NCBI GenBank assembly: GCA_031292625.1
Contig: JARLGU010000031.1
Location: forward strand, 124,001 to 188,000
From: Capsulimonadaceae bacterium
GTDB taxonomy: Bacteria > Armatimonadota > Armatimonadia > Armatimonadales > Capsulimonadaceae
Length of the DNA stretch: 64,000 bases
Direction: 5' to 3'
The translations under genes were made by a program, and so were the position numbers. Positions 8,446 through 60,767 of this stretch are shown one piece after another (positions within the stretch are counted from its first letter, which is position 1; every line of letters starts with the position of its first letter). The notes under the pieces are model-generated. The model saw only the letters and a list, made by a program, of their open reading frames with translations, had not been told where the DNA came from and did not search any database.

Positions 8446-8518
8446 ATCTCAATGCGATAAATGTTGTTGGGCGGTGGGATGAGCGCTAAAAGCGGAGCAA
8501 CGAATCTATTCGGTCACT

Positions 8519-10233: not shown

Positions 10234-10260
10234 AAACCGCTCAAGGGAAAAAGTCGCGAA

Positions 10261-11574
10261 TTATCGCTGGATAAACTCGTGGATCACGTCCAGCATATAG
10301 GATCTCCGCGCATCGTCGATCCCGGGATAGACGCCGATCCACAGGACGTTGTTCATGACGAAGTCCGCGCGCTTCAGGTCACCGATGACGCGTTTCTCAA
10401 TGTCGCGGTACGCAGGCTGGCGGATCAGGTTGCCAGCGAACAGAAGACGGGTCGCTATCTTGTTCGTTTCTAGAGCGTTCACAAGCTGATCGCGTGTAAA
10501 TGGAGCGCCGGGACGAACCGCTATCGGGAAGCCGAACCAGCTCGGCTCGGAGCGAGGCGTCGGTTCTGGCAGGATAAGATACTCCTCGACGTCCTTTAGT
10601 CCTTCGTAGAGCGCCTCGAAGTTGCTCTGCCGTGCCTTAATAAACTCGGGCAGCTTCTTGAGCTGGGACATCCCAACGGCCGCCTGCATGTCGGTGACCT
10701 TCAGGTTATAGCCGATGTGCGAATACGTATACTTGTGATCGTATCCCTCGGGCAGCTCGCCGAGTTGCCACTCGAAGCGCTTTCCGCACGTATTGTCCTT
10801 ACCGGGCTCGCAATAGCAGTCGCGTCCCCAGTCGCGAAACGACTCGGCTAGGGTCTTTAGAATCGCCCGATTTGTCAGCACCGCTCCGCCTTCGCCCATT
10901 GTAATATGATGCGCGGGATAGAAGCTCGTCGTCGCAAAGTCGCCGAACGTTCCGACCAGGCGCCCATCGTACTTCGCCCCAACCGCATCGCAGCAATCTT
11001 CGATCATCCAGAGGTTGTGACGTTTCGCGAACTCTGTCACCGCTCCCAGATCGAACGGATTGCCGAGAGTATGCGCCACCATGATCACGCGTGTTTTTTC
11101 GGAAAGCGCGTCCTCAAGATAGCTCGCGTCAATATTGTATGTCGGCACGTCCACGTCAACGAACACGGGAACGAGGCCGTTTTGGATTGCGGGATTGAGC
11201 GTCGTCGGGAAACCGGTCGCGACAGTGATCATCTCATCACCGGGTTTGAGACGCCGTTCGCCCAGTTTAGGCGATGTCAGAGCCGAAAGCGCTACCAGGT
11301 TGGCGGACGAGCCCGAATTGACCAGCATCGCTTTGCGTACGCCAAAAAGCCGCGCGAACTCGCGCTCGAAAGCCTCCGCAAACCGCCCCGTGGTCAACCA
11401 GAAGTCGAGTGACGCATCTACGAGATGCTGGATATCCTCCGCATCGAAAACCTTGCCGGAGACTGGAACGAAAGTTTCGCCAGGCACGAACTCGCGTACC
11501 GGAAAGGCAGCCTCGTGATAATCAGCGACGAGGTCGCGAATCTTCTTTCTGATTTCATCCGCGCGATTGGTCAC
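10261..11574 (-). CDS. rfbH: CDP-4-keto-6-deoxyglucose 3-dehydrase (E1, RfbH)
   Basis: This 437-residue protein is the PMP-dependent E1 dehydrase that removes the 3-hydroxyl of CDP-4-keto-6-deoxy-D-glucose on the way to 3,6-dideoxyhexoses. It has the aminotransferase fold ([28 protein letters not shown]) and the diagnostic [14 protein letters not shown], where His replaces the PLP-binding Lys of ordinary aminotransferases. Cysteines for the 2Fe-2S cluster lie in [19 protein letters not shown]. The GTG at 11574 is chosen because AAGGAG lies 8 bases upstream and GTGA overlaps the rfbG stop; the longer frame from 11643 overlaps too far. It needs an E3 reductase partner, which is not in this window. 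Confidence 0.93.
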
Positions 11575-12560
11575 GACAAGAACTCCTTGTACCAGCGTAT
11601 TGTCAGGTCGATCCCCTGATCGAGCGTGTATATTGGGCTCCATCCAAGCAAACGACGTGCTTTTTCGGCGCTAAGGTACTGATGGCGGATCTCGTTGCTC
11701 GCTTCGTTCATGATAACAGGTTGCAAATCCGTTCCCATTCTGTCAAGAATCTTAGTAACCAGCTTGGTAACGGTGACCTGGATTTCGTTCGAAAAGTTAA
11801 ACGCTTCTCCCGACAGTTCCTCGCGGCGGGAGGCGAGTTGCTCGGCCAGCAGCAGGTACACAGCCGCGCCGTCGTCCACGTAGAAATAGTCGCGAATGAA
11901 TTCGCCGTCGGAGCGGATGACTGGCGGCTGACCGCGCAGAATCGAGCGGATGGAACCAGGCACAATGCGATTCCAGTTAAGGTCGCCTCCGCCGTAGAAA
12001 TTTCCGCACCGCGTCGTAACCACGGGCAGTCCGTAACTCTTGGCGTATGTATGGGCGATCAGGTCCGCGCAGGATTTGCTGACATCGTAGGGATGCTGAC
12101 CTTGCAGCGGCGTGCTCTCGTCGTACGGCAGTATCTCTTGGTCGCCATAAGCTTTGTCCGAGGACGCGTTGACGATCTGCTTGACGAGAGGGCTGCGGCG
12201 GCATGCTTCGAGAAGGCTCCACGTTCCCTGAATATTGGCCTCGAACGTCGAGATGGGGTTGCGGTTGGCGATGCCGACGATCGTCTGGGCAGCCAGGTGA
12301 AGAACGGTGTCGATTTCATGCTCGCCGAGAATGCGCTCCAGTCCCGCCTGATCGCGGATGTCGCCGCGGACAACCGTGACCCGAGAGAGATCGCCGCTCC
12401 GAAACAGCTCTGCCTCAGGGACCCAGTCGCGAATGAGACAAACGACGTGCGCTTGCGCAGCAAGAAGGCGTTTGACCGTCCAAGCGCCCACGAGACCCGT
12501 TGCACCGGTGACGAGTGTTGGCCGATCGCGCCAAAATGCAGTGTTGCTCAATGTTTCCAC
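11571..12560 (-). CDS. rfbG: CDP-glucose 4,6-dehydratase (RfbG)
   Basis: This NAD-dependent short-chain dehydratase (about 329 residues) converts CDP-glucose to CDP-4-keto-6-deoxyglucose. It has the Rossmann start [27 protein letters not shown], the catalytic region NASSDKAYG and the YxxxK motif in [12 protein letters not shown], followed by [19 protein letters not shown], which is typical of RfbG. The GTG at 12560 is preferred (AGGA 8 bases upstream, overlapping the rfbF end); a TTG at 12551 overlapping the rfbF stop is an alternative. It sits between rfbF and rfbH with overlaps on both sides, matching the reaction order. Confidence 0.92.
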
Positions 12561-13309
12561 GGGGCTTGTCCTGCGCTCCAAAGTTGATCGAGATAGCGTT
12601 TGTCGCGAAGCGTGTCCATGCACTGCCAGAAGTCCGTATGCTTGTAAGCGGCAAGCTGGCGCTCGCGCGAAAGCTGTTCGAGAGCGTGCTCCAGGATGCT
12701 GGAGTCATCTTGAAGGTAGTTGAATATAGCGGGATTGAGCACCATGAAGCCGCCGTTGATAAAACCTTCGCCCATTTGCGGCTTCTCGGTAAAGTCACTC
12801 ACGAGATCGCCGTCGAAGTCCAGCCTTCCAAACCTCGCCGGAGGACGCACCGCAGTCAATGTTGCGGTCTTTCCGTGGGCTTTGTGAAAAGCGACGAGTG
12901 CGCGGATGTCGACATCGGAGACGCCGTCGCCATACGTTAGCAGGAAAGGCTCATTATCAAGGTAGCGCTTAAGCCGCAAAACCCGGCCGCCCGTCATTGT
13001 GGTCGTACCCGTGTCGATCAGGTGCAGCGTCCAAGGGTCAGTTTTGAATTGGTGACGCGTCACGTCGCCATTGCCGACTTGAACGGTCATGCTGCCTTGC
13101 AGTGCGACGTAGTCAAGGAAGTAGCGCTTAATGTACTCGCCTTTGTATCCAAGGGCCACATAGAACTCGTTGAACCCGTAGTAGCTGTAGTGCTTGAGAA
13201 TGTGCCAAAGAATGGGGTGCTCGCCGATCTCCACCATTGGTTTCGGCTTTATTTCCGTCTCTTCGGCCAAACGGGTACCCAGGCCGCCCGCCAGGATTAC
13301 GACTTTCAT
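12548..13309 (-). CDS. rfbF: Glucose-1-phosphate cytidylyltransferase (RfbF)
   Basis: This 253-residue nucleotidyltransferase makes CDP-glucose from CTP and glucose-1-phosphate, the first step of CDP-dideoxysugar synthesis. The signature [20 protein letters not shown] is at the N-terminus, followed by [32 protein letters not shown], the metal site [10 protein letters not shown], and the RfbF-typical [12 protein letters not shown] and [14 protein letters not shown]. The ATG at 13309 has GAGGAG about 9 bases upstream; the longer frame from 13396 would run into the Wzz gene end and has no support. It heads the rfbFGH overlap cluster, 29 bases after the Wzz stop. Confidence 0.95.
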
Positions 13310-13338
13310 CAACCGGTTCTCCTCAATCCTATCGTACC

Positions 13339-14751
13339 CTATGTCGATTGCTTGCCGGTTTTCGCGTTGACGGCCTTGAGATACGCCGCGAGACACGAGA
13401 CGGCATAGGCGAGAAGGACCAATGCTATGACCCCGCCGACCATCATGCTAGGTCTTGGTTCGCCCCTGTCGGGCGGTATTGCCGAATCGACCACGGAGAC
13501 GCGGCTTTGCGCGGCCGCGTTTTCGAGACGGACCTTTGCAGCCTCGGAAACCGTCGCTTTGAGGATTTCAAGACGGATCTGAACTTCGTTCATCAGCTTG
13601 CCCATCACTCCAGACAGTTCGCGGCCCTTGCCAAGCCTTCGTGCCGCTTCGCTTATCTGGATCTGGATGACTTGCCGTTGAGCAAGGAGGCCTTGCCGTT
13701 GTGAGCTCGTGAGCACCTGCTCCGACGTCCGTCGTTGCAGCACGCCCTGGACCTGGGTATGAAGGACAGAGTTATCGGTTCGTAGCTGGTTTCGCGCGAG
13801 GATGACGCCTGGATAGTCGGGACCATAAGTTACTTGTAATTTGTCCAGTTCCGCTTTGTCCTGAAGTACCTTGTTTCGGGCCTCGGCAAGCAGCGGGTCT
13901 TCCGTGGGAACCATGTTCACCGAGCCAAGCAGCTTGGCCGTCAACGCCTCCTGCGCTCCTTGAGTCGCCTGACTCGCCCCGAGTTGGGCATCGACCCGTG
14001 CAAGTTGGGTATAGAGTGCGCCAATCTCGTCCTGCGTAGGGGCGGGCACGTCTTTACTAATTGTCGGAGTCGAACGCGGGTCCACATTTTTCAATGCATT
14101 CGTAAATAGCAGCAAGTTGTGAACGGACTCGTCGTACTCCCGGCGCGCTTCCTTTGTTTGTTCGTCCGCGCCGCGCAGCAGAACCGTTTCCCGATCGTTG
14201 TCCGTGTCAAGATAGTAGCGCACCAAGGCATCATAGTAGCCATTGGCCGCGTCAGCCGCCTTCTTCTCGATGAGCGCGCGCTGTGCACGAGGTCCTAATA
14301 TTGGCGGTCCCGGCAACGAGACGGTGATCGCGAGCAATCCGGAGGCCGGATCGTCCACGGCCTTAACGTGCTTCTGGAGGAACTCGGGCAAATCACGCGA
14401 TTTCTTAAACCGGTAGCCGGGAACATGCGCCAGGTCGATCTGCTTCGCAACTTGCTCGGCGGCTGTCCGGCTCGCTATAACGCCAATGTAGCGCGGATTC
14501 GTCTTGCCTCCCGCAAGGGCTGCGAGAGATGTTATTGCCCCTTGGCTCTGCTGAACCGCGACCGTCGTAGTTGCGGTGAATTGTTGAGGCGTTGTAGCCA
14601 AAACAATGACGGACAGAACCGCGGCTGCCAGCGTGCCTCGAATTAACCAATTCCGCGCCTTTGACCGGAGGATCTCACGCAGGAGTTTCGTGTCGATGGT
14701 TATTTCTTCGCTATCGGGTGCGGATGCCAAATAAGTCCTCGGAGTGTTCAA
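13339..14751 (-). CDS. Wzz/GumC-like polysaccharide co-polymerase without kinase domain
   Basis: This 470-residue inner-membrane protein has the layout of polysaccharide co-polymerases, which set glycan chain length. A first membrane helix lies at about residues 37-55 (GTLAAAVLSVIVLATT), then a long periplasmic alpha-helical arm with coiled-coil stretches (AELDKLQVTYGPDYPGVILA, the GNVR-type region) and a second helix near the end (MMVGGVIALVLLAYAVSCL). No tyrosine-kinase domain follows. It is first in the cluster, so the locus promoter should lie upstream of 14751. A palindrome TCAATCGATTGA (14752-14763) touches the start codon and no clear Shine-Dalgarno is seen. A decayed paralogue is at 8519-9590. 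Confidence 0.85.
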   Translation of the reverse strand: MNTPRTYLASAPDSEEITIDTKLLREILRSKARNWLIRGTLAAAVLSVIVLATTPQQFTATTTVAVQQSQGAITSLAALAGGKTNPRYIGVIASRTAAEQVAKQIDLAHVPGYRFKKSRDLPEFLQKHVKAVDDPASGLLAITVSLPGPPILGPRAQRALIEKKAADAANGYYDALVRYYLDTDNDRETVLLRGADEQTKEARREYDESVHNLLLFTNALKNVDPRSTPTISKDVPAPTQDEIGALYTQLARVDAQLGASQATQGAQEALTAKLLGSVNMVPTEDPLLAEARNKVLQDKAELDKLQVTYGPDYPGVILARNQLRTDNSVLHTQVQGVLQRRTSEQVLTSSQRQGLLAQRQVIQIQISEAARRLGKGRELSGVMGKLMNEVQIRLEILKATVSEAAKVRLENAAAQSRVSVVDSAIPPDRGEPRPSMMVGGVIALVLLAYAVSCLAAYLKAVNAKTGKQST

Positions 14752-14763
14752 TCAATCGATTGA

Positions 14764-15323
14764 GCGTTCGTGAGCGACCGGTTACACAGCGGTCAACTTA
14801 ACGAAAAAGCTAAGGCCGGAGCGCGCAAAGCTCAAAATGTCCGGCTGATCTATCAGTCCTTGACCGCAAGCATTATTGATCGACGTTCTGCGTGAAAACC
14901 AGTCGCTAAGCGGCCGTCGCACACGCTGAACTGGAACTGCGATGCGCGATTACGAGACAGTGCTGGGCAACAGGTTCTCATATGGCGGAGATTGCGCGAC
15001 CTGACCAGAACGCCAATCGAAGCAGTCGTCTCCACTTTTGGGGAAACTTTCGATGTCCAGCCAATATTGGTACGGGCAGATGTCGGATTATTCTAACGGG
15101 AACAGGTTAAAGCCACTGTGTTTTTTCGTTTGCTCGTAGATTCAATCTCGTCCTGGGCAGGCCACTCACCGTGATCGCGGATTAAGCCGTCCGCATTACC
15201 ATCGCTCGTTGCCTACCGAGCATTATCGAGACGCCCTACTTATGATAGCATCGGTCCTTCTTTCGTGTCAAGTGCGACCCCCCTGAGCGGTTGCCGGCGG
15301 CACTGACAACCCCGTCGATCAGG
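14764..15323. other. Intergenic region between divergent genes, no gene seen
   Basis: This stretch of about 560 bases separates the minus-strand polysaccharide operon from the plus-strand secreted protein gene. I see no convincing coding frame, RNA gene or repeat. It must contain the promoter of the Wzz-rfbFGH operon, but no hexamer pair near consensus was found on the minus strand. Confidence 0.5.
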
Positions 15324-15329
15324 TATACT
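15324..15329 (+). promoter_or_regulatory. Candidate -10 box of the secreted-protein gene
   Basis: TATACT at 15324-15329 precedes the gene at 15404 by about 75 bases. The best -35 match, CTGACA at 15303-15308, gives a 15-base spacer, shorter than ideal, so this is a moderate call. Confidence 0.4.
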
Positions 15330-15403
15330 TGGTCGCAAGTGCGCGATACCCATTATCGCGATTTCGCGTGAGCGCACCTGAGATCGGGAGGCATTGCGAT
15401 CGC

Positions 15404-16057
15404 ATGGATTTGAAGGCTCTTATCTTAGTCGGTACGTCACTCGCCATTATGTCGCCGGTTCAGGCTCAGACGCTCCAGTCCGGCGCCGTTTTGACGGCCA
15501 TTGGCGCAGCGGAGGCTACCCCCTCGCAAGAGATCGTCGTTCCGGCCGCGCCTGCGCCCGCGACGGAAACGCCAGTTGTCCGCTCGTCCGGCTCCCGGCG
15601 GCTCCGCGTTGGTCCCGAACTGGGCCTTTTCGTCCCAACAAGGAATCTCGTACGCAACCGATTCGGCACGAATTGGTTTTCGTTCGGCGTCGGTCTTGGA
15701 CAGTACACGACGGCTCCTGAGACCGGACAGTGGACATTCGATATCAGTTTGCTCTCAAATGCCTCTGGGGGGAACGCCGCATATCTGCTTCCTCTCGGCG
15801 CAGAGTATCGTCTCGGTTTGGCCGCTAACCGCTCAGCGGTGCCGTACGTAGCCGCCGAGGGCGATTATGTGCCGTCGGATGTGCGCTCCCAAACAGATAA
15901 CGTTAACTGGGGGATCCGATCGGCATGGGGCGGCGCCCTTCTCGCCGGAATAGATTTCGGAAGCGATGCGCGCATTGAAGCCGGCTATCGCTGGATCTCG
16001 GATATTATCGGCTACAACTTCTCCGGTGCGGTAATCTCCGCCGGATTCCGGTTCTAG
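15404..16057 (+). CDS. Secreted, probable small outer-membrane beta-barrel protein
   Basis: This 217-residue protein of unknown exact role starts with a clear signal peptide (MDLKALILVGTSLAIMSPVQ, cleavage after AQA). After a Pro/Ala-rich linker, it becomes a chain of alternating beta-strand-like segments (LRVGPELGLFVPT, SFGVGLGQY, PLGAEYRLGLA, GALLAGIDFG, RIEAGYRWISDI) ending in VISAGFRF. A C-terminal aromatic on a strand is the usual recognition signal for outer-membrane barrel insertion, which suggests an outer membrane. The ATG at 15404 is chosen because the signal peptide begins there and GGGAGG lies upstream. The gene is a lone plus-strand unit, closed by the hairpin at 16085-16119. Confidence 0.6.
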   Translation: MDLKALILVGTSLAIMSPVQAQTLQSGAVLTAIGAAEATPSQEIVVPAAPAPATETPVVRSSGSRRLRVGPELGLFVPTRNLVRNRFGTNWFSFGVGLGQYTTAPETGQWTFDISLLSNASGGNAAYLLPLGAEYRLGLAANRSAVPYVAAEGDYVPSDVRSQTDNVNWGIRSAWGGALLAGIDFGSDARIEAGYRWISDIIGYNFSGAVISAGFRF

Positions 16058-16084
16058 TCCGGCACGTCAACAACTCAAATCAGC

Positions 16085-16119
16085 AAAGCCCTTCCACGAC
16101 TCTAACGCGGAAGGGCTTT
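16085..16119. terminator. Bidirectional terminator hairpin
   Basis: A perfect 11-bp stem, AAAGCCCTTCC (16085-16095) with GGAAGGGCTTT (16109-16119), separates the convergent secreted-protein gene and the sugar operon. The stem overlaps the last codons of the mannitol-1-phosphate dehydrogenase gene, and the T-rich arms can serve both directions. Confidence 0.85.
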
Positions 16120-17253
16120 GTCATCTTTGCCAAGGAACTCCGCAGGGTTGATACCGGAGATCTGCGTCAACGCCGCCGTATCGCCGAGAGAGTTGCGCAG
16201 TCGCTGAAGCTCGACGGCCGACGGGTCGTCCGGGTTGTCGTAACGCAGCGCCGCATCGATTACTCGCGAGATTGCCCGGGGCGCAATTCCGTGCTTCGCG
16301 CACAATGCTGCCGCGCCGATCAGGCGATCGGTCCCGCGAAGCTTGCGGATCGGGTCGGCGGCGACGCGCGCGACCGTATCTCCAAGAACCTTGTTCGTAA
16401 AGCGCGCCATCAGATCGGCCGAGAATTCGTGCAGTGCCGCTCGGTCGAAATGGTATTCGCGGATAAGGGCGGAACTGGCCTCGTCGATGCAGGATGAGCA
16501 CTCCTCGAATACCTGTGCGTCCGCCGCGCATTGCCAGATGTATTCGTGTCCTCGCTGATAGCCAAGATAGGCAAGCGCCGCATGGCTCATGTTATGAAGA
16601 AGCAGCTTCCTGGCCTCGTATGCTGGAAAGTTATCCGCCTCGATCAAGCCAGGCAGGCGCGGCGCCGGTCCCCGGAGCGCACGTCTGTCAATGGGGAGTT
16701 CCTTGTACGGCTCCGCGACGACCAGCAAGGGGTCCGAAGGGCTGCTTCCCGGTTTTGCGGCAGGCACCATGCGGCCGATCACGGTTTCCACGAGACCGAC
16801 CCCGTTCTCAAAATAGGTCCGCGCGCGGTCCGCAATGTGGGGCGAGATCATCTCACGAACCGTCGCGGCGGCGTGCCACTGGTTTTCGCAAAGCAAGATG
16901 TCGATCGGACCGCGCGAGTTGCGCGCGCGCTCATTGATTCCGGCGGCCAGGGATCCTGCGACGGCCGGCAGCGCGCGAACACCGGCAGCCGTCGCGATAA
17001 TGCCGGCACGGTCAATCGCGGACGTGACTTTCGCCGCGTCGAATGCCGAAATTGCCGTCAAATTGCCGATCGTCAGGCGATCATCGCAATTCACCCCAAC
17101 AAGATGCAGAGGGTAGCGGCCAGCTCGCTTAAGGTTCTCGACCAGGCCTTCATCGGCATCGACAAAAGTCGTTTCATAGCCGCCCTCGTAGAAAAGCTGT
17201 CCGATAAAGCCGCGACCGATGCTGCCTGCGCCAATTTGGACTGCTTTAGGCAT
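16102..17253 (-). CDS. mtlD: Mannitol-1-phosphate 5-dehydrogenase family protein
   Basis: This 383-residue protein belongs to the long-chain polyol dehydrogenase family and most resembles MtlD, which interconverts fructose-6-phosphate and mannitol-1-phosphate with NAD(H). The N-terminal Rossmann motif is GAGSIGRGFIGQLFYEGG, as in MtlD. The catalytic Lys-Asn-His set is visible in ARKLLLHNMSHAALAYLG, followed by the helical C-terminal domain. It overlaps the sugar-kinase gene by 8 bases and is the last gene of the mannosidase operon. A fructuronate or other polyol-phosphate reductase role is possible, but the kinase upstream would supply fructose-6-phosphate and so favours MtlD. Confidence 0.75.
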   Translation of the reverse strand: MPKAVQIGAGSIGRGFIGQLFYEGGYETTFVDADEGLVENLKRAGRYPLHLVGVNCDDRLTIGNLTAISAFDAAKVTSAIDRAGIIATAAGVRALPAVAGSLAAGINERARNSRGPIDILLCENQWHAAATVREMISPHIADRARTYFENGVGLVETVIGRMVPAAKPGSSPSDPLLVVAEPYKELPIDRRALRGPAPRLPGLIEADNFPAYEARKLLLHNMSHAALAYLGYQRGHEYIWQCAADAQVFEECSSCIDEASSALIREYHFDRAALHEFSADLMARFTNKVLGDTVARVAADPIRKLRGTDRLIGAAALCAKHGIAPRAISRVIDAALRYDNPDDPSAVELQRLRNSLGDTAALTQISGINPAEFLGKDDKALPR

Positions 17254-18187
17254 TCTCGAATCCTTTCAGAAACGCTTCGGTTTCGGCAAGCGTTCGTATT
17301 CCCGTTGTCGCCCCGAGTTCCTGAACGCAGCAGGCCCCTACGGCATTTGCAAAGCGCAGCGTCCGTTCAAGCGGCCACGCGTGGCACAGCCCGCACAAGA
17401 AGCCCGCCGCCCACGCATCGCCGGCTCCCAGCGCATCCACCGCTGTGACTGGCAGGGGAGGCGCACAGAGCTCTTCGCCGCTAGATGTCAGCACGTATGC
17501 CCCCTTTTCGCCCAGCTTTATTCCCGCGACGCCGACTCCATGGTCGATCATGAACTTCGCGATGTCGGGAGGGGCCTGGAGCCCTGTGATCCTTCGCCCT
17601 TCTTCGAGCGACGGCAGAGCGTAATCAAGGTGCGGCAGGCACGGGACATAGTGGTCGAACCAATTGCCTGAGTGATCCCAAACCGTGTCGAGCGTCGTGA
17701 TCTTGCCCATCGATTGTGCGCGCGCCAGTACGCGGGCGCAGTCCTCGCCGGCAAACCGAGGCATCAGCGAGGGGCCAGCGATATGCAAGATGTCGGCCTT
17801 TTCGATGACCTGCCAGTCGACGTCCTCTTCGGAGAACTCCGCGTTTGCCCCGGTGTAGTGCAGAAACGTGCGCTCGCCGGCGGCATCTACTGCGACCATT
17901 GTCGCGGATGTCGACGCCGTACGGCTCCGCGCGACGCCGCTTGCATCGAGTTCCGCGGCGCCGAGCGAGTTTACCAAGAAGTCTCCGAAGCCGTCGCGCC
18001 CGACTTTTCCAAGCACCGACGCTTTAATCCCCAGGCGAGCGAGCGCAATGCTCGTATTCGCGGCGCATCCGCCGGAGTGCAACTGGATACGCTCCACTTC
18101 GGCCAGGGTGCCCTTCGGCGGGAACGATTCGATAGTCTTGCCAACCACGTCGGCAACCAGAATTCCAAGACACGCGACTCGAAGCAT
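17246..18187 (-). CDS. PfkB/ribokinase-family sugar kinase
   Basis: This 313-residue kinase of the PfkB family phosphorylates a sugar with ATP in the cytosol. It has the N-terminal substrate motif GGCAANTSIALARLG followed by LGKVGRDGFGDFLV. The C-terminal PfkB signature DALGAGDAWAAGFLCGL contains the catalytic Asp and the anion hole GAGD. It follows the isomerase gene after 6 bases and overlaps the dehydrogenase gene. Given an isomerase that could make fructose from mannose before it and an MtlD after it, fructokinase activity is the most economical proposal. Sequence alone does not separate fructokinase, ribokinase and KDG-kinase activities here. Confidence 0.85.
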   Translation of the reverse strand: MLRVACLGILVADVVGKTIESFPPKGTLAEVERIQLHSGGCAANTSIALARLGIKASVLGKVGRDGFGDFLVNSLGAAELDASGVARSRTASTSATMVAVDAAGERTFLHYTGANAEFSEEDVDWQVIEKADILHIAGPSLMPRFAGEDCARVLARAQSMGKITTLDTVWDHSGNWFDHYVPCLPHLDYALPSLEEGRRITGLQAPPDIAKFMIDHGVGVAGIKLGEKGAYVLTSSGEELCAPPLPVTAVDALGAGDAWAAGFLCGLCHAWPLERTLRFANAVGACCVQELGATTGIRTLAETEAFLKGFENA

Positions 18188-18193
18188 GAAAAT

Positions 18194-18649
18194 TTAATCC
18201 TCCTCGGACACGGGGTCCCGGATAACTGCCGCGTTCTCGAAATACGAATCGGCGTTTTCGTCGTGCGTCGACACCTCTTCGATGACCGCGCCCGCAACCG
18301 ATCCGAACGTGTGCGGCGTCCCTGGGAAGAGCGTATACCGGTCGCCTGGGTTGAGGGTAACAGTCTCATTCGACGTCCGCACGACGACCGTGCCTTGAAG
18401 AACGAAGAACGTCTCTTTCTTCACTTTGTGATAATGCATCGGGCACTGTTGGCCGGGCGTCAACGTTAGCCACTTGCTGCAATATTCCGGCTCATTGACG
18501 CGGACGACGAGTCCGAGGCCCTCGGCATGGTAGCGGCCGAGGCCGAAATCAGCGATTTCGACAGGGGTTTCATCATTCACGACAATACCGGCGCTGGCAA
18601 GCTGCCGTCGGACAATCTCTTGCGCGGCGTATATCTCACTTCGTTTCAT
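18194..18649 (-). CDS. Cupin D-lyxose/D-mannose isomerase-like protein
   Basis: This 151-residue single-domain cupin starts MKRSEIYAA, as in D-lyxose ketol-isomerases. Metal ligands are visible as the two His and the Glu of PMHYHKVKKETF and the His of PGTPHTF. Known D-lyxose isomerases also convert D-mannose to D-fructose, which would suit its place between an alpha-mannosidase and a sugar kinase. The ATG at 18649 overlaps the mannosidase stop (ATGA) and has AGGAAGG about 10 bases upstream; the longer frame from 18754 lies inside the mannosidase gene. It could instead be a type II phosphomannose-isomerase-like cupin. Family fold is firm, substrate is inferred. Confidence 0.7.
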   Translation of the reverse strand: MKRSEIYAAQEIVRRQLASAGIVVNDETPVEIADFGLGRYHAEGLGLVVRVNEPEYCSKWLTLTPGQQCPMHYHKVKKETFFVLQGTVVVRTSNETVTLNPGDRYTLFPGTPHTFGSVAGAVIEEVSTHDENADSYFENAAVIRDPVSEED

Positions 18650-21600
18650 TGCCGATTTCCTTCCTGTTGCGACAAGTCCGTCTCGCCGCCTTCGATCAAC
18701 ACGGTCGCAAATTGGTGAGCCGCGATGGACACGTTGATGCAGTTGCCCACCCATTTCGCGTCCCCTCGGACGGGGCGCTCCATGATATCGACGACCGACG
18801 CTTTAGAAAGCCCGGCTGCCATAGCCGGAGATAATTCCACGCTCGCCTCGGTGTCCTGTCCGTTCAATTCAACGAGGCGAAGAACCAGACCGTTCCCTCG
18901 TCCCGCCGCTTTAAAGGCCGTCAGGAGAATCCCTGGCGTGAGCGAGCGCGCAAAACCTTGCGCCGACGGCCAGCTGCCATCATGCACGCCGGACGGGAGC
19001 GCGATCAAGGGGTGGTTCCATGCTGCCCCAAGCCGCGCGAGCGCAGCCGGATCGGCGGCGTGGTCGTGAAGATAAAGCGAGTAGCGAACAGTCGTCGTCG
19101 CGACCTCCGGCGTCGGATCCGGGGAGAAGCTGGAGCGCACGATGCGGAGCCTCAAGACGTATCCGTCTTCGTCGTTGCCGACGATCGAATGTCCGTACTT
19201 GCTGTCCTGAACGAGCGTGATTCCGGCGAAGACGTCAGCGCCCGTCTCTGTCCTCGCGACGCCCTCGATGTGGGCATATCGAAGCGACGGAACCTCGTCG
19301 CCATCGAATAGATCGCGCTCGATACTGCCGAACGGGGTCTCGTAGCGGGCCGAAATAGACTTGAACGCAAGCGGGATGGTCATCACGAGACCGGGGATGC
19401 CGCTCTGCTGAGTGCCGATCTCGCGCCAGTCGATTTCCGCCGTGAAATCGAGGCGCGGCTCATGCGGGCTAATGCTTAGCGTCAATTTGACCGCGCTGTT
19501 CGTGCCTGGAACTGCGAGGGCGTGTTCTGCCTGACAGCCCGTTGGAAACGCGCCGTGCACGCTGCCTGTATTATCGTGAAACTTACGACCGAGTACGTGA
19601 AAGCCCTTGACCTTTAAGTTCACCGGCTCAGCGACCTCGCGTCCAAGCGACCAGGCTTCCATTCCGCGCGGCTCTTCGACGACATATTGGAACGTCCCCA
19701 GCGGAGAGCGGCCGGAGACCGGCGTGATCCGCCCGCCCGTTCGCTTATCGATCAAGCCGGTGACGCCGCCAAGTTCGCGATCGACCGCAAATTTGAGGAA
19801 CGGCGTCTCAAACGTATTCCCGTTCCCGGCGATCACCGCGGGTGGATCGTCCGCATGGGACAGCGCGTTGGGCAGGTTTCGTCTTTCGCAGAGCAGATAC
19901 GTTTTGTAGCCCATTGCGGGAACGTCCCGAGCGTCGAACGCGACCTGGAGGCGCGCGTGACCGTATTCGTTCGGGCTGTCATGGAGGACAAGGACGGGAC
20001 GGGCGACGCCGTCGCCGCCCACCGCGACAATCTGGGATCGATCGAATTCGCTGTCGAATATCGACACGATGATGCGCTCGGAACGCTCCCATGCGCACGG
20101 ATTGAAGACGACATAGGGCCGGAAGCGCTTACCGTTGCCGCCCGCGTCCGAGAGGCCCGAGCGCGATGCCCCCAGACCGTGACCGGCGCCGGATGCGTTG
20201 CGTGGAGGGCAGATGCGCTCTTGTTCGCCTGCCCATGTTGCGGGAAGCAGGGATGCGGTGTCGATCAGCGCGATAAGCGCCTTGAGTGCATCCCGCTTGA
20301 TCGATCCCGTGATCGCGCCTACTTCCTGAAACTGCGCCATCGCGTATTCGCGCGTTTGCCTGACGCCGGCGCCTTGAAGAATGTCGTGGAATTGGCAGAA
20401 CAGAACCCGGCGCCAGGCATCGCGCAGGAGCTCGTGGGGATAGGCGGCGTTCAGCAGGCGGGATGCGATTGCGGAGAGCGTCTCCGCCTCGATGAGATAG
20501 TTTTCGCCAAAGCGGTTCGCCTGCTTGATCAGACTTTGCGACGTATAACATCCCGTAAACTCAAAGTTCAGCTCGTCAGTGAGGACCGGAAGCTCAATAG
20601 GGTTCGCCGCGAGGTCGGCCTCGATCGTTTCAAAGTAGCGCTTGACCGTGCTGAACTCGAGGGTAGGGTAGATCGGCCACTGAGCCAACTCATTGAGGTA
20701 GTCGAGCCCTGCGCGAGTCGGTCCGCCGCCGTGGTTGCCGACGCCGTAGACGTACATCCAATCATGCAAGCTCGTCTCGCGTACAAAATCAACAAGCGAG
20801 AGCGCGATGTTCTGCCCGCCATCTGGATATTTGCAATACCAGGTCGCGTCGCGATTCACCAGAACGCGCGAGCCGTCCGGCGACTGCCAGTAGAACAATT
20901 GCGGACGAGCCTCGCCGATCCGCGCATGTTCGAAGCCGCCGCCGGTACGGCAGCAGTAATAGTATTTGACCGCGCCCTGCGCCAGAATCCCCGGAAGCGA
21001 ACTTGGATGGCCGAATGTGTCCGGTTCCCAATCGATGGGAATGCTTTCCGGCGCAAGTCCGAACTTCTCGTCGAAATACGACCGCGTCATTTCAAGGTGC
21101 CGGCAGAGGCTCTCTCCTGACGCGAGATTCTTGTCGCCTTCCACCCATTGCGCCGCCGTAATTTCCCAGCGGCCTTCGCGTACCCGCTGGCGGATTTCCT
21201 CGAACATCGCCGGATGGTAGCGTTCGATCAGCGCATAGGTCGCCGTCTGGCTTTGCGAAAAGGTGAGCTTGGGATAGGCGCGCATCAGTTCGAGCACGGA
21301 CGCGAACGTGTCGTGCGTAACCGAAACGGTCTCTGGCCAGCTCCACATCCAGTTCATATCGATGTGGGCGTGAGCGACGTTATGAATGCGGTACCGCTTG
21401 GCGAATGCGCCGATCTCGGATAGGACCTCTTCGGCCTCGGATATGCTCCGTGCGAACGCGGCGAGACCCTGCGTGGGATCGAGCTGCGAAACATGCGCCT
21501 CGGCGGCGTCGATCAGGGTCAGCCACCGTTCGCGCCGCTTCGTCTGGACGTTTGCGAATGCGCGGGCGAATTCGAGTTCCATGGTCACGCGCCGCCACAA

Positions 21601-21669
21601 GCGCTGGAACTCGCGGTTGGGCTCCTCGCGCAGTTCGTGCGAGAAGTACGGCAGAATATTTTCGATCAC
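18646..21669 (-). CDS. Alpha-mannosidase, glycoside hydrolase family 38
   Basis: This large (about 1007 residues) retaining alpha-mannosidase would release mannose from alpha-mannosides. The catalytic domain is at residues 95-400, with zinc-site motifs HAHIDMNWMWSW and the nucleophile Asp in DWEPDTFGHPSSLPG. The helical domain (about 400-480) and C-terminal beta domains follow. No signal peptide is present, so it should act in the cytosol on imported oligosaccharides. The GTG at 21669 is preferred (AAGG about 9 bases upstream); a TTG two codons earlier would be too close to that site. It is first of a four-gene operon with ATGA coupling to the isomerase. Confidence 0.93.
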   Translation of the reverse strand: MIENILPYFSHELREEPNREFQRLWRRVTMELEFARAFANVQTKRRERWLTLIDAAEAHVSQLDPTQGLAAFARSISEAEEVLSEIGAFAKRYRIHNVAHAHIDMNWMWSWPETVSVTHDTFASVLELMRAYPKLTFSQSQTATYALIERYHPAMFEEIRQRVREGRWEITAAQWVEGDKNLASGESLCRHLEMTRSYFDEKFGLAPESIPIDWEPDTFGHPSSLPGILAQGAVKYYYCCRTGGGFEHARIGEARPQLFYWQSPDGSRVLVNRDATWYCKYPDGGQNIALSLVDFVRETSLHDWMYVYGVGNHGGGPTRAGLDYLNELAQWPIYPTLEFSTVKRYFETIEADLAANPIELPVLTDELNFEFTGCYTSQSLIKQANRFGENYLIEAETLSAIASRLLNAAYPHELLRDAWRRVLFCQFHDILQGAGVRQTREYAMAQFQEVGAITGSIKRDALKALIALIDTASLLPATWAGEQERICPPRNASGAGHGLGASRSGLSDAGGNGKRFRPYVVFNPCAWERSERIIVSIFDSEFDRSQIVAVGGDGVARPVLVLHDSPNEYGHARLQVAFDARDVPAMGYKTYLLCERRNLPNALSHADDPPAVIAGNGNTFETPFLKFAVDRELGGVTGLIDKRTGGRITPVSGRSPLGTFQYVVEEPRGMEAWSLGREVAEPVNLKVKGFHVLGRKFHDNTGSVHGAFPTGCQAEHALAVPGTNSAVKLTLSISPHEPRLDFTAEIDWREIGTQQSGIPGLVMTIPLAFKSISARYETPFGSIERDLFDGDEVPSLRYAHIEGVARTETGADVFAGITLVQDSKYGHSIVGNDEDGYVLRLRIVRSSFSPDPTPEVATTTVRYSLYLHDHAADPAALARLGAAWNHPLIALPSGVHDGSWPSAQGFARSLTPGILLTAFKAAGRGNGLVLRLVELNGQDTEASVELSPAMAAGLSKASVVDIMERPVRGDAKWVGNCINVSIAAHQFATVLIEGGETDLSQQEGNRQ

Positions 21670-21770
21670 GTTCAAATCCCTTTAGGACTCTCTCTTGCTG
21701 CGTGTTAAGCGGCTAAAGAAAAATGGCCAGCCCGGCCATGGAGGGCATCTTAATCCTCATTTTCTCGTAG

Positions 21771-22085
21771 GTATTGCGAGAACAAGATTCAGGACGGCTC
21801 GGGCCGCCGGGGCCTTTTTTCGCCCGCGCCTCGCTCACGGCGGTGATTTATGATGCTTCGTCAACACGCGTACGGCCTTTTGCCGCCAGCGTCCGCCGGT
21901 CACGGAGCGGTCTCGCGCGCGCCTCGTTCACGGCGGTGATTTACGATGCCTCGTCGACACGCGTACGGCCTTTTGCCGCCAGCGTCCGATTCCAGCGCAT
22001 ATCGTGAAGCAGTGAAAGCGCTGTGACGGCCCTTTTTCAAAAACGGCCACGGCGGCCGGGGAGCCGTCTTACAAGACCTTTCGAT
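21771..22085 (+). repeat. Dispersed intergenic repeat, copy A (two-unit form)
   Basis: This is a 315-bp repeat in the leader of the mannosidase operon, inverted relative to the other four copies. It runs from GAGAACAAGATTCAGGACGG through a GC-rich terminal repeat, two copies of an internal unit of about 90 bp (CGCCTCG…GCCAGCGTCCG, the first at about 21825-21900), to the opposite terminal repeat ending GAGCCGTCTTACAAG. The ends are imperfect inverted repeats. Frames reading through it are low-complexity and not genes. Confidence 0.85.
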
Positions 22086-22137
22086 TTCTTACTTACGCTC
22101 TAACAAAGCCAAAGCCCCACCCTTATTATCGTTCATC

Positions 22138-22151
22138 TGAAATCGATTTCA
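22138..22151. promoter_or_regulatory. LacI-type operator palindrome
   Basis: TGAAATCGATTTCA is a perfect 14-bp palindrome with a central CG, the form bound by LacI/GalR/CcpA-type regulators. It overlaps the first base of the -10 box and the predicted transcription start of the minus-strand promoter at 22151-22179. A repressor here would block the mannosidase operon; the LacI protein at 24116-25129 is the obvious candidate. Confidence 0.75.
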
Positions 22152-22179
22152 TAATAGCGCGTTGGCTTGAATATGTCAA
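22151..22179 (-). promoter_or_regulatory. Sigma-70 promoter of the mannosidase operon
   Basis: On the minus strand the -35 is a perfect TTGACA (22179-22174), followed by a 17-base spacer and -10 TATTAT (22156-22151), five of six matches. Transcription would start near 22143, giving a leader of about 470 bases that contains repeat copy A. Confidence 0.8.
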
Positions 22180-22228
22180 GTGGGAGGCAGATTCTTTTCG
22201 GGATATCTTGCGGCTGTACGGCCGCGCG

Positions 22229-23647
22229 CTAGCCGAGCGAAGCGCCGTCGCGTCGCAATGCTTCGCGCACGGACGAGACATCGGCATCGTGCAATGGCGA
22301 GTCTGTTAAGGCTGCCGCCGCAATCGCGATGCCGGCGGCGTGGCCGAGGTCCATCATGGTCCGGCTAAGCCGGCAACTTGTGGCCGCAATATGCGAAAAG
22401 CTCGCGCCGCGGCACGCAACGGCAACATTGTCGAGGCTGACGGGCAGCAAGCACCCGAGGGGGATGCCGTACGGCTCGCGAAGTTCCGCGATACCGGCGC
22501 TTTCAGCGCCGTGGCTGTCCATCGCGTGGTCGGCGATTGCGACGATGTTGGCGTTTGTTTGTCCGGAAAGACCGGCAATCAAGTCGTGCTGCGTCAAAAC
22601 GTATTTGCCGCGAACCCGCTTGGTCTCGCGGACGCCAAGCGACGGCGCGATCCACGACAGCCTGAAAGATTGGAACTCAGGGTATCGGTTTTGCATCCAG
22701 TGCCAATGCGCCATGACGCGGTTTGTACACAGCTCATAGGCCTTGCCGTAGCCGTCCGGCGAGCGCATGATGTTAAGAAACTCATCGCCGTTCATGGTGG
22801 GCAGCATGTTGATGTTGAGGTCGCCTGCCGGATAGCGTCCGATGATGGCGAACGGCCAGTGTTTTTGCCAAGGACAATCGCCGATGGGCGCATCGAAAGG
22901 CTCTATCGCCTTTTGCGCGGCTGGTGCGACGCGGTAAATCAGGCTCACGCCGTTGACGTCGTCGGGCCTGGCTTTTAGCGGCGCTGCGCTTTCGCCGAAT
23001 TCGGCGGCCGCCTCCTGCCCCTGCATCATTTCGCATCCGGCGGCCTGGCACAGCCTCGCGTCAGCGGTAGAATCGACGAAATAGCGAGCGGTTATCCGGC
23101 AGTCGCCGCCGTTGTTCGAGACCAGGCGCAAGGAGCGCAGTCGTTCGCCATCGCGCTGAGCCTCCGTGAAGCTCCAGCCCTTCAGTATGTCGCACCGGCT
23201 TGTCTTGAGCAACAAGTCTTCGACGACCTTTGCATAGGCGTCGGGCTCGAAAACAACGCCATGCCAGGTCCTGCGGCAAAACTCCTCATCGAGATGCATG
23301 CCCTGGCTGCCATATCGCCGCAGCGTGTCATTGTAGCCCCGCGCGGGATCGATGACCGTTTCTCCACCGGGGAAATCTTCTCCGCCCGGCCAGCAGCAGT
23401 GCCGTCCAAACGACCACACTCCCGCCGCGCCAAGGGCATTCAGGCGCTCGTAGATTTCGCGCGGATACGCCGTCCCTCCAACGCCGGGCTCCCAGTTGTG
23501 GACGCCGCCGATAACCGCATTGCCGCCGAGGCGGTCGGCGCGTTCGACGAGCGTCACGCGAAGACCGTGGCGCGCCGCGGCAAGCGCCGCGCCGATTCCG
23601 CCGCTGCCGCCGCCGATAACACATACATCGCAGTTCATTTGGTCCAT
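22229..23647 (-). CDS. FAD-dependent oxidoreductase (FAD_oxidored family)
   Basis: This 472-residue flavoprotein has the N-terminal dinucleotide motif CVIGGGSGGIGAALAAARHG with ERADRLGGNAVIGG and the mid-chain FAD motif ARYFVDSTADARLC. This fits the FAD_oxidored (PF12831-like) family common in carbohydrate-degrading bacteria, whose substrates are mostly unknown. No signal peptide is seen. It stands alone between two inverted copies of the dispersed repeat (21771-22085 and 23696-24010), with the LacI gene upstream and the mannosidase promoter just downstream of its stop. Two Met codons (residues 1 and 4) are possible starts. The reaction is unknown; an oxidation of a sugar or sugar acid is a guess from context. 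Confidence 0.8.
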   Translation of the reverse strand: MDQMNCDVCVIGGGSGGIGAALAAARHGLRVTLVERADRLGGNAVIGGVHNWEPGVGGTAYPREIYERLNALGAAGVWSFGRHCCWPGGEDFPGGETVIDPARGYNDTLRRYGSQGMHLDEEFCRRTWHGVVFEPDAYAKVVEDLLLKTSRCDILKGWSFTEAQRDGERLRSLRLVSNNGGDCRITARYFVDSTADARLCQAAGCEMMQGQEAAAEFGESAAPLKARPDDVNGVSLIYRVAPAAQKAIEPFDAPIGDCPWQKHWPFAIIGRYPAGDLNINMLPTMNGDEFLNIMRSPDGYGKAYELCTNRVMAHWHWMQNRYPEFQSFRLSWIAPSLGVRETKRVRGKYVLTQHDLIAGLSGQTNANIVAIADHAMDSHGAESAGIAELREPYGIPLGCLLPVSLDNVAVACRGASFSHIAATSCRLSRTMMDLGHAAGIAIAAAALTDSPLHDADVSSVREALRRDGASLG

Positions 23648-23695
23648 TGTTCGCTTTTCGCCTCGCTACGGGGGCGTCTCAGAAAGTGTGTAAAG

Positions 23696-24010
23696 AATCG
23701 AGAGGCCCTGTAAGACGGCTCCCCGGCCGCCGTGGCCGTTTTTGAAAAAGGGCCGTCACAGCGCTTTCACTGCTTTCCGATACACGCTGCAATCGGCCGT
23801 AGCAGGCAAAGCGCCGTACGCGTGTTGACGTGCCTTTGTCATTCACCGCCGTGAACGAGGCGCGGGCGAGACCGGTCCGTGACCGGCGGACGCTGGCGGC
23901 AAAAGGCCGTACGCGTGTTGACGTGCCTTCGTCATTCACCGCCGTGAACGAGGCGCGGGCGAAAAAAGGCCCCGGCGGCCCGAGCCGTCCTGAATCTTGT
24001 TCTCGGTACG
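23696..24010 (-). repeat. Dispersed intergenic repeat, copy B (two-unit form)
   Basis: This 315-bp copy is inverted relative to copy A and lies just upstream of the FAD oxidoreductase. It starts AATCGAGAGGCCCTGTAAG, then GACGGCTCCCCGGCCGCC and GTGGCCGTTTTTGAAAAAGG, carries the same duplicated internal unit as copy A, and ends CCGTCCTGAATCTTGTTCTC. Similarity seems to extend left to AAAGTGTGT (from about 23683), shared with copy E. Confidence 0.85.
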
Positions 24011-24115
24011 CCGATTCATCACACACCTTCTCAGATTGGCTATCGATCTTATACCGCGAAGCGATTGAAAAATGGGCACGTTAAGCATCGTAAGTCTATC
24101 GAGGATCCCCGGAGC

Positions 24116-25129
24116 TTACCGGCGCGGAGCGGCTGAGGAGCTCCGGACGATCAGCTCGGGAGCGAAGACCTTGCTGCGCGGTTCGTGCGGTTCCTCCTCG
24201 CGAATTTGCGCGAAGAGAAATTCAGCGGCTTGCCGACCTATCTCGTAGGAGGGTTGAGCGACGGCGGTGAGCGCCGGGATCATCAGGTCGAAGATTTCGA
24301 GGTCATCAAAAACGACCAGCGCGATATCGTCTGGGATCGCTTTCTCGAGCTGCTTCAGCGCCCGCATGACCGCAAGGGCGATCCGGTTGTTCGCCGCGAT
24401 CAGCGCGGTCGGCGGCTCAGGGGCTTGCAGCATCTTTTCGAGGCACGCGGGCACATCGGCCAGGTCGAAGCTGACCCGGCATGCGTCGCCTTGCTCGAGG
24501 CCGATGTTCGCCTCGTCCAGTGCATCGCGGTATCCGCGCTCGCGGAGCGCAACCGTCATCTGTCCCATCGCGTAGGTGACGAAGCCGATCCGCCTATGGC
24601 CGTGCGCCGCGAGATGGCGCGTCGCAATGTACCCGCCGCCCCGGTTGTCGAGCGTGACGCTGCTGGCCCCCAGCCCTTCGATGCGCCGGTCGACCTGCAC
24701 GACGGCAATGCCCGAGTCCATTAACTCCCGCACCACGGCGCAATTGGCGCCGCTGGGCGCGAAGACGATTCCTTCGACCGCCTTGTCCTGCAGCATCTTC
24801 AGGTATGCGAGTTCCGTGTCCGGGTCTTCGTTCGTGTTGCCGAGAATGACGACATAGCCCTCTTGTCTCGCGACGTCCTCGACCCCGCGAGCCAGCGCGC
24901 CGTAGAAGGGATTGAGCACGTCGTTGATGAGCAGGCCCAGGCTGTGCGTCGCCTTTGTTTTCAGGCTGCGCGCAAGAAGATTCGGGCGGTAGTTGAGTTC
25001 CGCGATCGTGTTCAGAATTGCGGAGCGCTTATCGTCGGCCACGGGGACGACGCCGGTTAGGACGCGCGAGACCGTGCTCGGCGATGTCCCGGAAAGGCGG
25101 GCAATGTCCTTAATCGTAAGAGGCTTCAT
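24116..25129 (-). CDS. LacI-family transcriptional regulator
   Basis: This 337-residue DNA-binding repressor has the LacI helix-turn-helix at the N-terminus (TIKDIARLSGTSPSTVSRVL), the hinge helix NYRPNLLARSLKTKAT and a periplasmic-binding-protein-like sensor domain (SLGLLINDVLNPFYGALARG, VVQVDRRIEGL, IGFVTYAMGQ). It overlaps the thyX stop by 4 bases, so it is co-transcribed with thyX, an odd partner. The nearest target is the palindrome at 22138-22151 controlling the mannosidase operon, so mannose or a mannoside is the likely ligand. That pairing is inference. Confidence 0.9.
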   Translation of the reverse strand: MKPLTIKDIARLSGTSPSTVSRVLTGVVPVADDKRSAILNTIAELNYRPNLLARSLKTKATHSLGLLINDVLNPFYGALARGVEDVARQEGYVVILGNTNEDPDTELAYLKMLQDKAVEGIVFAPSGANCAVVRELMDSGIAVVQVDRRIEGLGASSVTLDNRGGGYIATRHLAAHGHRRIGFVTYAMGQMTVALRERGYRDALDEANIGLEQGDACRVSFDLADVPACLEKMLQAPEPPTALIAANNRIALAVMRALKQLEKAIPDDIALVVFDDLEIFDLMIPALTAVAQPSYEIGRQAAEFLFAQIREEEPHEPRSKVFAPELIVRSSSAAPRR

Positions 25130-26592
25130 GACGCAGGGCGGGTTAGGGAGTATTGATTGCGGTTCACGCGGATGTGTTCGGCGATCGACGGATAGATGCG
25201 GTTGGTTTCATCCCAGACCTGCTGGGCGATCTTGCGATAAGATGGGTGCCCCTGTCGCGACGATCGCAGTTCGATGAAGTGGAACAGCTCGCGAAGGTTC
25301 GCCGTAAAGAGCGTCCGTACGCGGTACGCGAGCGGCAGGACATAGGCGGCCTCGGAGGGGAATCCGGCTTTCGCAATGGCGTCGTGCGCTTCGTGAGCCT
25401 GCTCCATCAGCCTGACGAAGATCCCTTCCAGGCCGAACGCCTCCAGATCGCGCGGCCGTTCGTAGCCGAGCGCGGGCGTAAGATTATCCGTCACGAGCGT
25501 CGCCATGCGGTGGCGCTGTATATCCCGGTATGCGCCGTAGTCCATCACGATCTCGAATGTCAGGCTGATTCTCTCGAACGACCGGGGAGGCGCATCGTGC
25601 AGACCGCGTCCGGCGAGCAGGGCGGCGACGCCTTCGCCGGCGGGACGCGTGACGCCCGATCGAAGACCGATCAGCGTGAGCGCCTGCTCCTCGTCGAAAT
25701 ACGGCTCTAGAACGCAAACGCCGCTTTGGCCGGGCGGAACGGCGACCGGTGCGGCGGTGCGCGCGGGCTTAGCGCAATGCAGCGAAGCGCGATATTCGTT
25801 GCGATCCGCGTACTTGAGCAATGTGGGGATGACCTTCACGGCCTCGCGCTTGATTTGTTCGCCGAGTTGTTGGCCTTCGATGAGAGGCTGGGAGAGCAGC
25901 TTGCCGATGAGCGTCTCCAGGGAACGGGCGTTGATGGTCAGGCCGATGTTCGTATGCGTCGCCGCCGGAAGCAGGTAACGCAGCGTATCGCATGCGGTGG
26001 ACTTGCACGCCGCTTCGTACGCGCGCGGCGATTGTTTCTCGGTGCGCGGAATGCGCTCCTTGATCTGCTCGATGACCGGCGCTTGCATGTCGACATAGGC
26101 GTTCATCAGCCGCTTGATTGCGTCGCGATAGACGTCCGCGACGGGCGACGCCATGATGTCTTCCGGGTACATCGCCTTGCTGGGATCGAACGCGACGTAG
26201 CGAGTGCTCTTCTCGGTGTACGAGGCAAGACGGCAATCTTCGATGAGCTTGGACGCCAGGATTGAGACGTTTTCTGCGGCGAGTTTGACCACGGCATGCT
26301 CGGCAACGCTGCCGTGGCCGTAGCCGACTACCCACTTTTCGTGAAACGCGCGCGCCTTTTCCTGCGCTCCGGCCAGCGGTTCGCCCTCTTCCGCGTTGTC
26401 CGCCGGACTCGATATCGCGAGATCGCCTTCGCTGATCAGCTTGATCAGGTTCTCGCGCAGACCGTCGTTTGAGCGAGAATAGTAAGCGAAAAGAACCGCG
26501 GCGACCTCTTCGGGAAGGTTTTTGAGCGCGAAGACGTTGCCGGTTACATCGGTGACGTAGTGGGAGAGCAAGGCGCGATTCGACTCGGACAT
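25126..26592 (-). CDS. thyX: Double-length ThyX-like flavin thymidylate synthase
   Basis: This 488-residue protein consists of two ThyX-like halves; usual ThyX is about 220-260 residues and tetrameric. ThyX methylates dUMP with methylene-folate, FAD and NADPH. The first half has YGHGSVAEHA and RLASYTEKSTRY (residues 121-132), keeping the Ser/Arg/Tyr substrate part of the RHRxxSxxxxSxRY motif but with Asp-Cys in place of its first Arg-His. The second half has RHR (360-362) but not the downstream Ser/Arg residues, then LPLAYRVRTLFTANLRELFH. The halves thus look complementary, as one fused active-site pair. Its gene precedes the LacI gene with a 4-base overlap. Confidence 0.8.
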   Translation of the reverse strand: MSESNRALLSHYVTDVTGNVFALKNLPEEVAAVLFAYYSRSNDGLRENLIKLISEGDLAISSPADNAEEGEPLAGAQEKARAFHEKWVVGYGHGSVAEHAVVKLAAENVSILASKLIEDCRLASYTEKSTRYVAFDPSKAMYPEDIMASPVADVYRDAIKRLMNAYVDMQAPVIEQIKERIPRTEKQSPRAYEAACKSTACDTLRYLLPAATHTNIGLTINARSLETLIGKLLSQPLIEGQQLGEQIKREAVKVIPTLLKYADRNEYRASLHCAKPARTAAPVAVPPGQSGVCVLEPYFDEEQALTLIGLRSGVTRPAGEGVAALLAGRGLHDAPPRSFERISLTFEIVMDYGAYRDIQRHRMATLVTDNLTPALGYERPRDLEAFGLEGIFVRLMEQAHEAHDAIAKAGFPSEAAYVLPLAYRVRTLFTANLRELFHFIELRSSRQGHPSYRKIAQQVWDETNRIYPSIAEHIRVNRNQYSLTRPAS

Positions 26593-26709
26593 GGCAATTT
26601 TCCGTTCAAGAGTGATTCGAACATATATCTAACGACGTAAGCTGGTCGTGTGATCTCGACCAAGATCCGGGCGGCCGAGCGCCAGCTTTCTACGAAGCTT
26701 GCGCGCCGC

Positions 26710-27609: not shown

Positions 27610-27822
27610 AGATTGGTTCCTGGGTCGTTATACCTTAATCTTGTTCCCTCGCCCGTCTCGGGAAGGTTACGGCGAGGACTTGCCGCAAAGCAGGTGCGCG
27701 TTGCCGGCGGCGAGTGCTTCTCCGGCCCGCCCGCGGATCCTGGGAAGGCGCGGCGACTCTCTGGTATGGCCTTCATTCGCCAGCGAGCCGGTATTCGCCT
27801 TTTCAGGAGGCGCGACCGCCGC

Positions 27823-50903: not shown

Positions 50904-50920
50904 TCCATTAATTGCCCAGC

Positions 50921-60762: not shown

Positions 60763-60767
60763 ATGTA

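Follow-up and report, generated by a model that had tools for sequence, protein, structure and literature searches.

Bacteria can isomerise mannose to fructose before phosphorylating it. In E. coli O157, the cupin isomerase LmuI turns mannose into fructose and the PfkB-type kinase LmuK has fructose kinase activity; overexpressing the regulator of the island let a manA mutant grow on mannose, and this growth depended on lmuKAIZYX (PMC10128022). A mannose isomerase route is also described in Pseudomonas, in a study that does not identify the gene, with carbon entering via fructose-1,6-bisphosphate (PMC6293094). A mannose route made of an isomerase and a PfkB kinase is, thus, already known. We describe here a four-gene operon in a 64,000-nt stretch of DNA from a Capsulimonadaceae bacterium of the phylum Armatimonadota (assembly GCA_031292625.1, contig JARLGU010000031.1, positions 124,001 to 188,000; hereafter the window), where what is new is a predicted GH38 alpha-mannosidase gene in front of such a pair and an MtlD-like dehydrogenase gene replacing the aldolase. 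Our literature search found no mannitol pathway in Armatimonadota, and no described function for the subtype of cupins of about 150 residues or for the group of PfkB kinases found in this operon.

Like lmuKAIZYX of E. coli O157:H7, the window operon pairs a cupin isomerase of the D-lyxose/D-mannose type with a PfkB-type kinase; lmuKAIZYX differs in having an ABC transporter, an aldolase, and a two-component regulator, and in lacking a mannosidase, an MtlD, and a LacI-type operator (PMC10128022). With the Pseudomonas route, the operon would share the step from mannose to fructose ahead of phosphorylation, the difference lying in the entry of Pseudomonas carbon given above (PMC6293094). As in the ManR-type LacI regulons (PMC4052901), an even palindrome with a central CG precedes mannosidase genes, whereas the window's regulator is assigned from its proximity only.

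The reading that we favour, with a probability of about 0.45 for the chain as a whole, is that of a mannoside operon controlled through a LacI-type operator. Alpha-mannosides would be imported and split by a GH38 enzyme of the cytoplasm, and the mannose set free would be isomerised to fructose by the short cupin; the PfkB kinase would phosphorylate fructose, most likely to fructose-6-phosphate, and the MtlD-like enzyme would interconvert fructose-6-phosphate and mannitol-1-phosphate. We regard both the input of mannosides and the isomerisation of mannose as quite probable.

Operon organization and the shared operator

The four genes lie on the minus strand of the window in the order GH38, cupin, PfkB, MtlD, as the original prediction had it, with all families above the curated Pfam cut-offs (GH38 N, middle, and C; Lyx_isomer and Cupin_2; PfkB; Mannitol_dh N and C). 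The frame of the GH38 gene (18646..21675) opens with a TTG at 21675, giving 1009 aa, or 1007 aa from an alternative GTG at 21669 with a better-spaced Shine-Dalgarno sequence; then come the genes for the cupin (18194..18649, 151 aa), the kinase (17246..18187, 313 aa), and the MtlD-like dehydrogenase (16102..17253, 383 aa). GH38 and cupin overlap by 4 nt (ATGA), cupin and PfkB are separated by 6 nt, and PfkB and MtlD overlap by 8 nt, a purine-rich Shine-Dalgarno-like stretch preceding each of the last three genes. Of the span 16102-22179 first given to the operon, the four genes do start from 16102, but the upper limit does not hold for the genes: GH38 stops short of it, at 21675, 21676-22179 is non-coding, and 22179 is the first base of the promoter.

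This promoter-like site (TTGACA-17-TATTAT, 22151..22179, minus strand) agrees with the consensus at 11 of 12 positions, and directly after its -10 box lies a perfect palindrome, TGAAATCGATTTCA (22138..22151), predicted to be a LacI-type operator. LacI-family operators are typically of even length with a central CG (PMC4052901), a pattern that TGAAATCGATTTCA shares, placed as it is upstream of mannosidase genes. The genome (5.77 Mb in 65 contigs, completeness 96%) holds exactly 2 copies of it and none of the reversed control, when 0.005 copies (independent bases) to 0.03 (third-order Markov background, trained on fetched stretches of the genome) would be expected. The second copy (L123:8348, on contig 41) is followed, after about 90 nt, by a reading frame (L123:5690-8254) coding for a GH2 beta-mannosidase, with Glyco_hydro_2_N2 and Mannosidase_ig domains and 5n6u as its best PDB match (E 1e-117). 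Since both exact copies precede mannosidases, that is, the alpha-mannosidase operon and the beta-mannosidase gene, and since the identity of the latter was not used in choosing the motif, we regard the palindrome as the strongest evidence that mannose is the sugar concerned. The mannoside input that had been proposed is borne out by this exact sharing, and a mannoside regulon under a predicted LacI-type operator is, in this way, independently supported. Copies with one mismatch were set aside: that at window position 28021 is within an SDR gene and probably due to chance, and that on contig 20 (L124:7909) is inside a called reading frame (7565-8770).

Another genome of the window's family (locus L037, an Armatimonadetes metagenome-assembled genome) has kept the cupin-PfkB-MtlD block as well, its genes similarly spaced, and the three families are adjacent again, in the order PfkB-cupin-MtlD, in a distant family (locus L103); the gene set is, therefore, not a product of chance. 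At L103, the kinase is 43% identical to the window's, the cupin is of the full-length lyxose-isomerase type (long subtype), and the MtlD homologue passes the NCBIfam mannitol-1-phosphate 5-dehydrogenase cut-off (374.5 vs. 368), so that the trio recurs with an MtlD of curated grade and an equivalent long-subtype isomerase. In G016, a further genome of the window's own family, cupin, kinase, and MtlD lie on three separate contigs, and the fact that genes dispersed there form a block in the window and L037 argues that the three work together. Of the four-gene order, the trio was found in two other Armatimonadota, and GH38 in neither cluster; the place of the GH38 gene in the operon is thus specific to the window's lineage. 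A GH38-MtlD adjacency in genome G017 was also considered as an ancestral four-gene operon and rejected, because its GH38 remnants are of another subgroup (64.7% to the contig-6 paralogue vs. 33.7% to the window GH38) and the locus is scrambled. There (L109, G017:C49, 1640-3061), a truncated MtlD abuts the scrambled remnants where the sister genome has cupin-PfkB-MtlD, either by decay or as an assembly chimera.

The four predicted enzymes

The product of the first gene is predicted to be an alpha-mannosidase. It has the full Pfam architecture (N, middle, C, and C2 domains), among solved structures it comes nearest to alpha-mannosidases of the Ams1 type and related ones (E 1e-54), and the alignment with Ams1 keeps HxD, the D of WxxDTFG, and the H of QFHD; we take the residues of the motifs HxD, WxxDxFG, and QFHD to have zinc and nucleophile roles, as in the family generally. 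No signal peptide was evident on direct reading of the sequence. The genome has a large set of GH38 genes, 12 including this one.

The assignment of the cupin to the D-lyxose/D-mannose isomerase type, already made in the original prediction, is supported by sequence matches and by a structural model. Pfam Lyx_isomer scores 47.4 bits for a cut-off of 20.8, and the sequence matches B. subtilis YdaE (2y0o) and Thermofilum TsLI (7nzo). The AlphaFold2 model (predicted local distance difference test, pLDDT, 92) superimposes on TsLI 7nzp with a Z of 23.1 and a root-mean-square deviation of 1.2 over 149 residues, followed in the structure search by an E. coli sugar isomerase (Z 19), L-ribose isomerases (17-18), and other cupins (below 14). 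In TsLI, the sugar and metal are contacted by K62, H75, H77, K86, E88, H143, E156, and D163 (PMC8378251); the window cupin keeps 7 of these 8 residues (K59, H72, H74, K77, E79, H113, and E125), all invariant in a 26-sequence alignment, with every metal ligand of the two cupin motifs present (H72, H74, E79, and H113). The eighth, D163, is N132 here, a contact residue in one structure that is not known to define the family. The window cupin, thus, has the fold and the metal/catalytic residues in common with YdaE and TsLI and differs from them by this Asn and by the lack of about 30 residues of inserts. Against the NCBIfam D-lyxose/D-mannose isomerase equivalog, it scores 23.8 bits for a cut-off of 350, the model being one of 227 positions that represents the long Gram-negative type. 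A second subgroup of short cupins (L113, L115, and similar), of about 160 aa and with an MPSxxxDxxF-like C-terminal motif instead of STHDENxDSYF, is common in other Armatimonadota families and has different neighbours.

The kinase has a Pfam PfkB domain with the GG and GAGD motifs. Its nearest structural neighbours are YdjH and ribokinases, with the sulfofructose kinase YihV also close; fructokinases do appear in the search, at lower ranks, and the sugar is not decided thereby. Plasmid homologues bear only generic "sugar kinase" labels.

The dehydrogenase is of the MtlD type, as proposed, and would act on a phosphorylated substrate, judging from family scores, a PDB match to 3h2z (E 6e-57), and its residues. 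It shares with MtlD (3h2z, 5jnm) the two-domain architecture (Mannitol_dh and Mannitol_dh_C), the catalytic Asn/Lys/Asn triad, aligned in the CEN and RKLLLHN motifs, and the two essential phosphate arginines; a difference is that the window locus has no mannitol phosphotransferase system (PTS) gene. In the mannitol-1-phosphate dehydrogenase of S. aureus (SaM1PDH), two phosphate arginines are essential and a third is less important (PMC6623548); in the comparison with SaM1PDH, R287 and R294 are kept and R283 is Ala. Fructose-6-phosphate and mannitol-1-phosphate are the likely substrates of the window enzyme.

Weighing the chain against its alternatives

A number of observations weigh against the chain from mannoside to mannitol-1-phosphate. 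As to the isomerase, activity on mannose varies in the family, being substantial in some members and below 2% in TsLI, a close solved homologue of the window cupin (PMC8378251, PMC6746899), and R175 of TsLI, blamed for its substrate strictness, aligns with R144 of the cupin. Yet the E. coli isomerase, which carries an equivalent arginine (PMC8378251), converts mannose (PMC10128022), so that mannose and lyxose cannot be told apart from the sequence alone; we infer mannose. The kinase, for its part, reaches no NCBIfam subfamily cut-off (IolC-like 159 of 300 bits, ribokinase 130 of 300, fructokinase 86.8 of 450). In fructose-6-kinases, the arginine of the DPNxR motif contacts fructose O2, and it is missing from ketohexokinase (PMC6240065); the window kinase reads LDTVWD at this site (N174 and R176 in VcFRK) and, thus, lacks it. 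Among the 291 Armatimonadota genomes of our phylum sample for orthologue counts, about 139 have a strong orthologue of the kinase (threshold 1e-60), and in 28 neighbourhoods these orthologues are commonly beside alaS, membrane-protein, or glycosyltransferase genes (labels read from sequence), not mannose genes; the group is phylum-wide and mostly outside mannose loci. The fructokinase of the original prediction is, thus, not established, and fructose phosphorylated at the 6-position would be the assignment that we marginally prefer.

The remaining points concern the dehydrogenase, the genome, and the locus. The best NCBIfam match of the dehydrogenase, mannitol-1-phosphate 5-dehydrogenase, stays below its curated cut-off (267.8 bits vs. 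356), and the third phosphate arginine (R283) is Ala. The genome has a bact-PGI_C gene, of the bifunctional phosphoglucose/phosphomannose isomerase (PGI/PMI) family, and four ROK kinases, one of whose genes, on contig 12, immediately precedes another GH38 gene; with this conventional route, the operon need not be the sole mannose route. The bypass of hexokinase and ManA that had been suggested is, therefore, only partly sustained: the type I phosphomannose isomerase domain was searched in the genome and not found, but the PGI/PMI-family gene and the four ROK kinases are present. Finally, neither the L037 nor the L103 cluster includes a GH38 gene, no TGAAATCGATTTCA-type operator was found at the L037 trio, and the leader between operator and GH38 start is 463 nt long, with a terminator-like hairpin (22058-22044).

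Four other explanations were weighed. The fold of the kinase, nearest to YdjH, ribokinases, and YihV, and the lack of the R176-type arginine separating fructose-6-kinases from ketohexokinase would fit a kinase making fructose-1-phosphate or another ketose phosphate, with MtlD using a different ketose/polyol phosphate pair; pairs of lyxose isomerase and PfkB elsewhere do adjoin an aldolase (Persicobacter, where a carbohydrate kinase is also near, G014, G015, and E. coli O157). We hold this to be unlikely, as the operon has no aldolase and two distant lineages have, in its stead, an MtlD of the mannitol-1-phosphate type. Lyxose-type isomerases are also found close to xylulokinase, in Pantoea and Priestia, and the characterised cupins compared prefer D-lyxose (PMC6746899, PMC8378251), which would suit a pentose route with the cupin acting on D-lyxose, the kinase on D-xylulose, and MtlD on arabitol phosphate; with an alpha-mannosidase opening the operon, an operator common only to the beta-mannosidase gene, and no xylulokinase adjoining, such a route is very improbable.

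Mannitol and mannose catabolism could also be joined here, through a polyol kinase and an MtlD oxidising mannitol-1-phosphate, both branches meeting at fructose-6-phosphate. Across the phylum, kinase and MtlD orthologues tend to occur together even where no cupin is linked to them (odds ratio 13), as a natural two-step polyol pathway would have it, but the signal within families is weak (Cochran-Mantel-Haenszel z 2.0), and for this reason we did not retain the co-occurrence as strong evidence; this explanation, which would leave the fructose made by the cupin with no kinase in the operon, is improbable. One has to consider as well that, in a genome with twelve GH38 genes, and given trios at L037 and L103 that lack GH38, the mannosidase gene might lie only by accident beside a cupin-kinase-MtlD cassette that is older and serves an unrelated purpose. 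The ATGA coupling over 4 nt and the mannoside-type operator before GH38 make this quite improbable.

The proposed chain from mannoside to mannitol-1-phosphate offers a concrete and testable assignment for the cupin subtype of 150 residues, and also for a group of PfkB kinases that roughly half of the Armatimonadota genomes sampled possess, and the shared operator makes the mannose part of it checkable. If MtlD ran reductively, the operon would join mannan breakdown to mannitol formation. That mannitol-1-phosphate serves as an osmolyte or redox sink is speculation, the operon having no phosphatase gene. A bolder version, which we find doubtful, is a dedicated route in Armatimonadota that leads from scavenged mannosides via free fructose to mannitol-1-phosphate, needs neither PTS nor hexokinase nor phosphomannose isomerase, and would supply mannitol as an osmolyte or serve as a redox sink, the phylum-wide PfkB group being an unrecognised family of fructose (or polyol) kinases.

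Flanking features and other loci

A LacI-family regulator (24116..25129, minus strand; Pfam LacI and Peripla_BP_3) is, by its proximity, the candidate repressor of the operon that may bind the TGAAATCGATTTCA sites. Between it and the operon lies a flavin adenine dinucleotide (FAD)-dependent oxidoreductase gene (22229..23647, minus strand; Pfam FAD_oxidored), which is probably outside the operon transcript, since the GH38 promoter is downstream of it.

The 5' leader of the operon includes a copy of a dispersed repeat (21777-22101, minus strand), to which the terminator-like hairpin belongs, with a 325-nt inverted partner at 23681-24005. The repeats of this family are intergenic and about 325 nt long, contain 93-nt units and a terminator-like hairpin rich in GC, and number about 10 copies in the 275 kb of the genome that were sampled; further copies lie near window positions 49183-49318, 50654-50912, and 60552-60763. 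An Rfam scan of window positions 10000-28000 gave no match.

In G014 and G015 (L039 and L040), an apparent aldolase and a Gfo/Idh-like dehydrogenase (both read from sequence), a PfkB kinase, and a long lyxose-isomerase cupin are clustered, an arrangement that resembles the logic of lmu in E. coli O157. In the window itself, the ThyX encoded at 25126-26592 is, with 488 aa, roughly double the NCBIfam thyX model in length and has two stretches that match Thy1.

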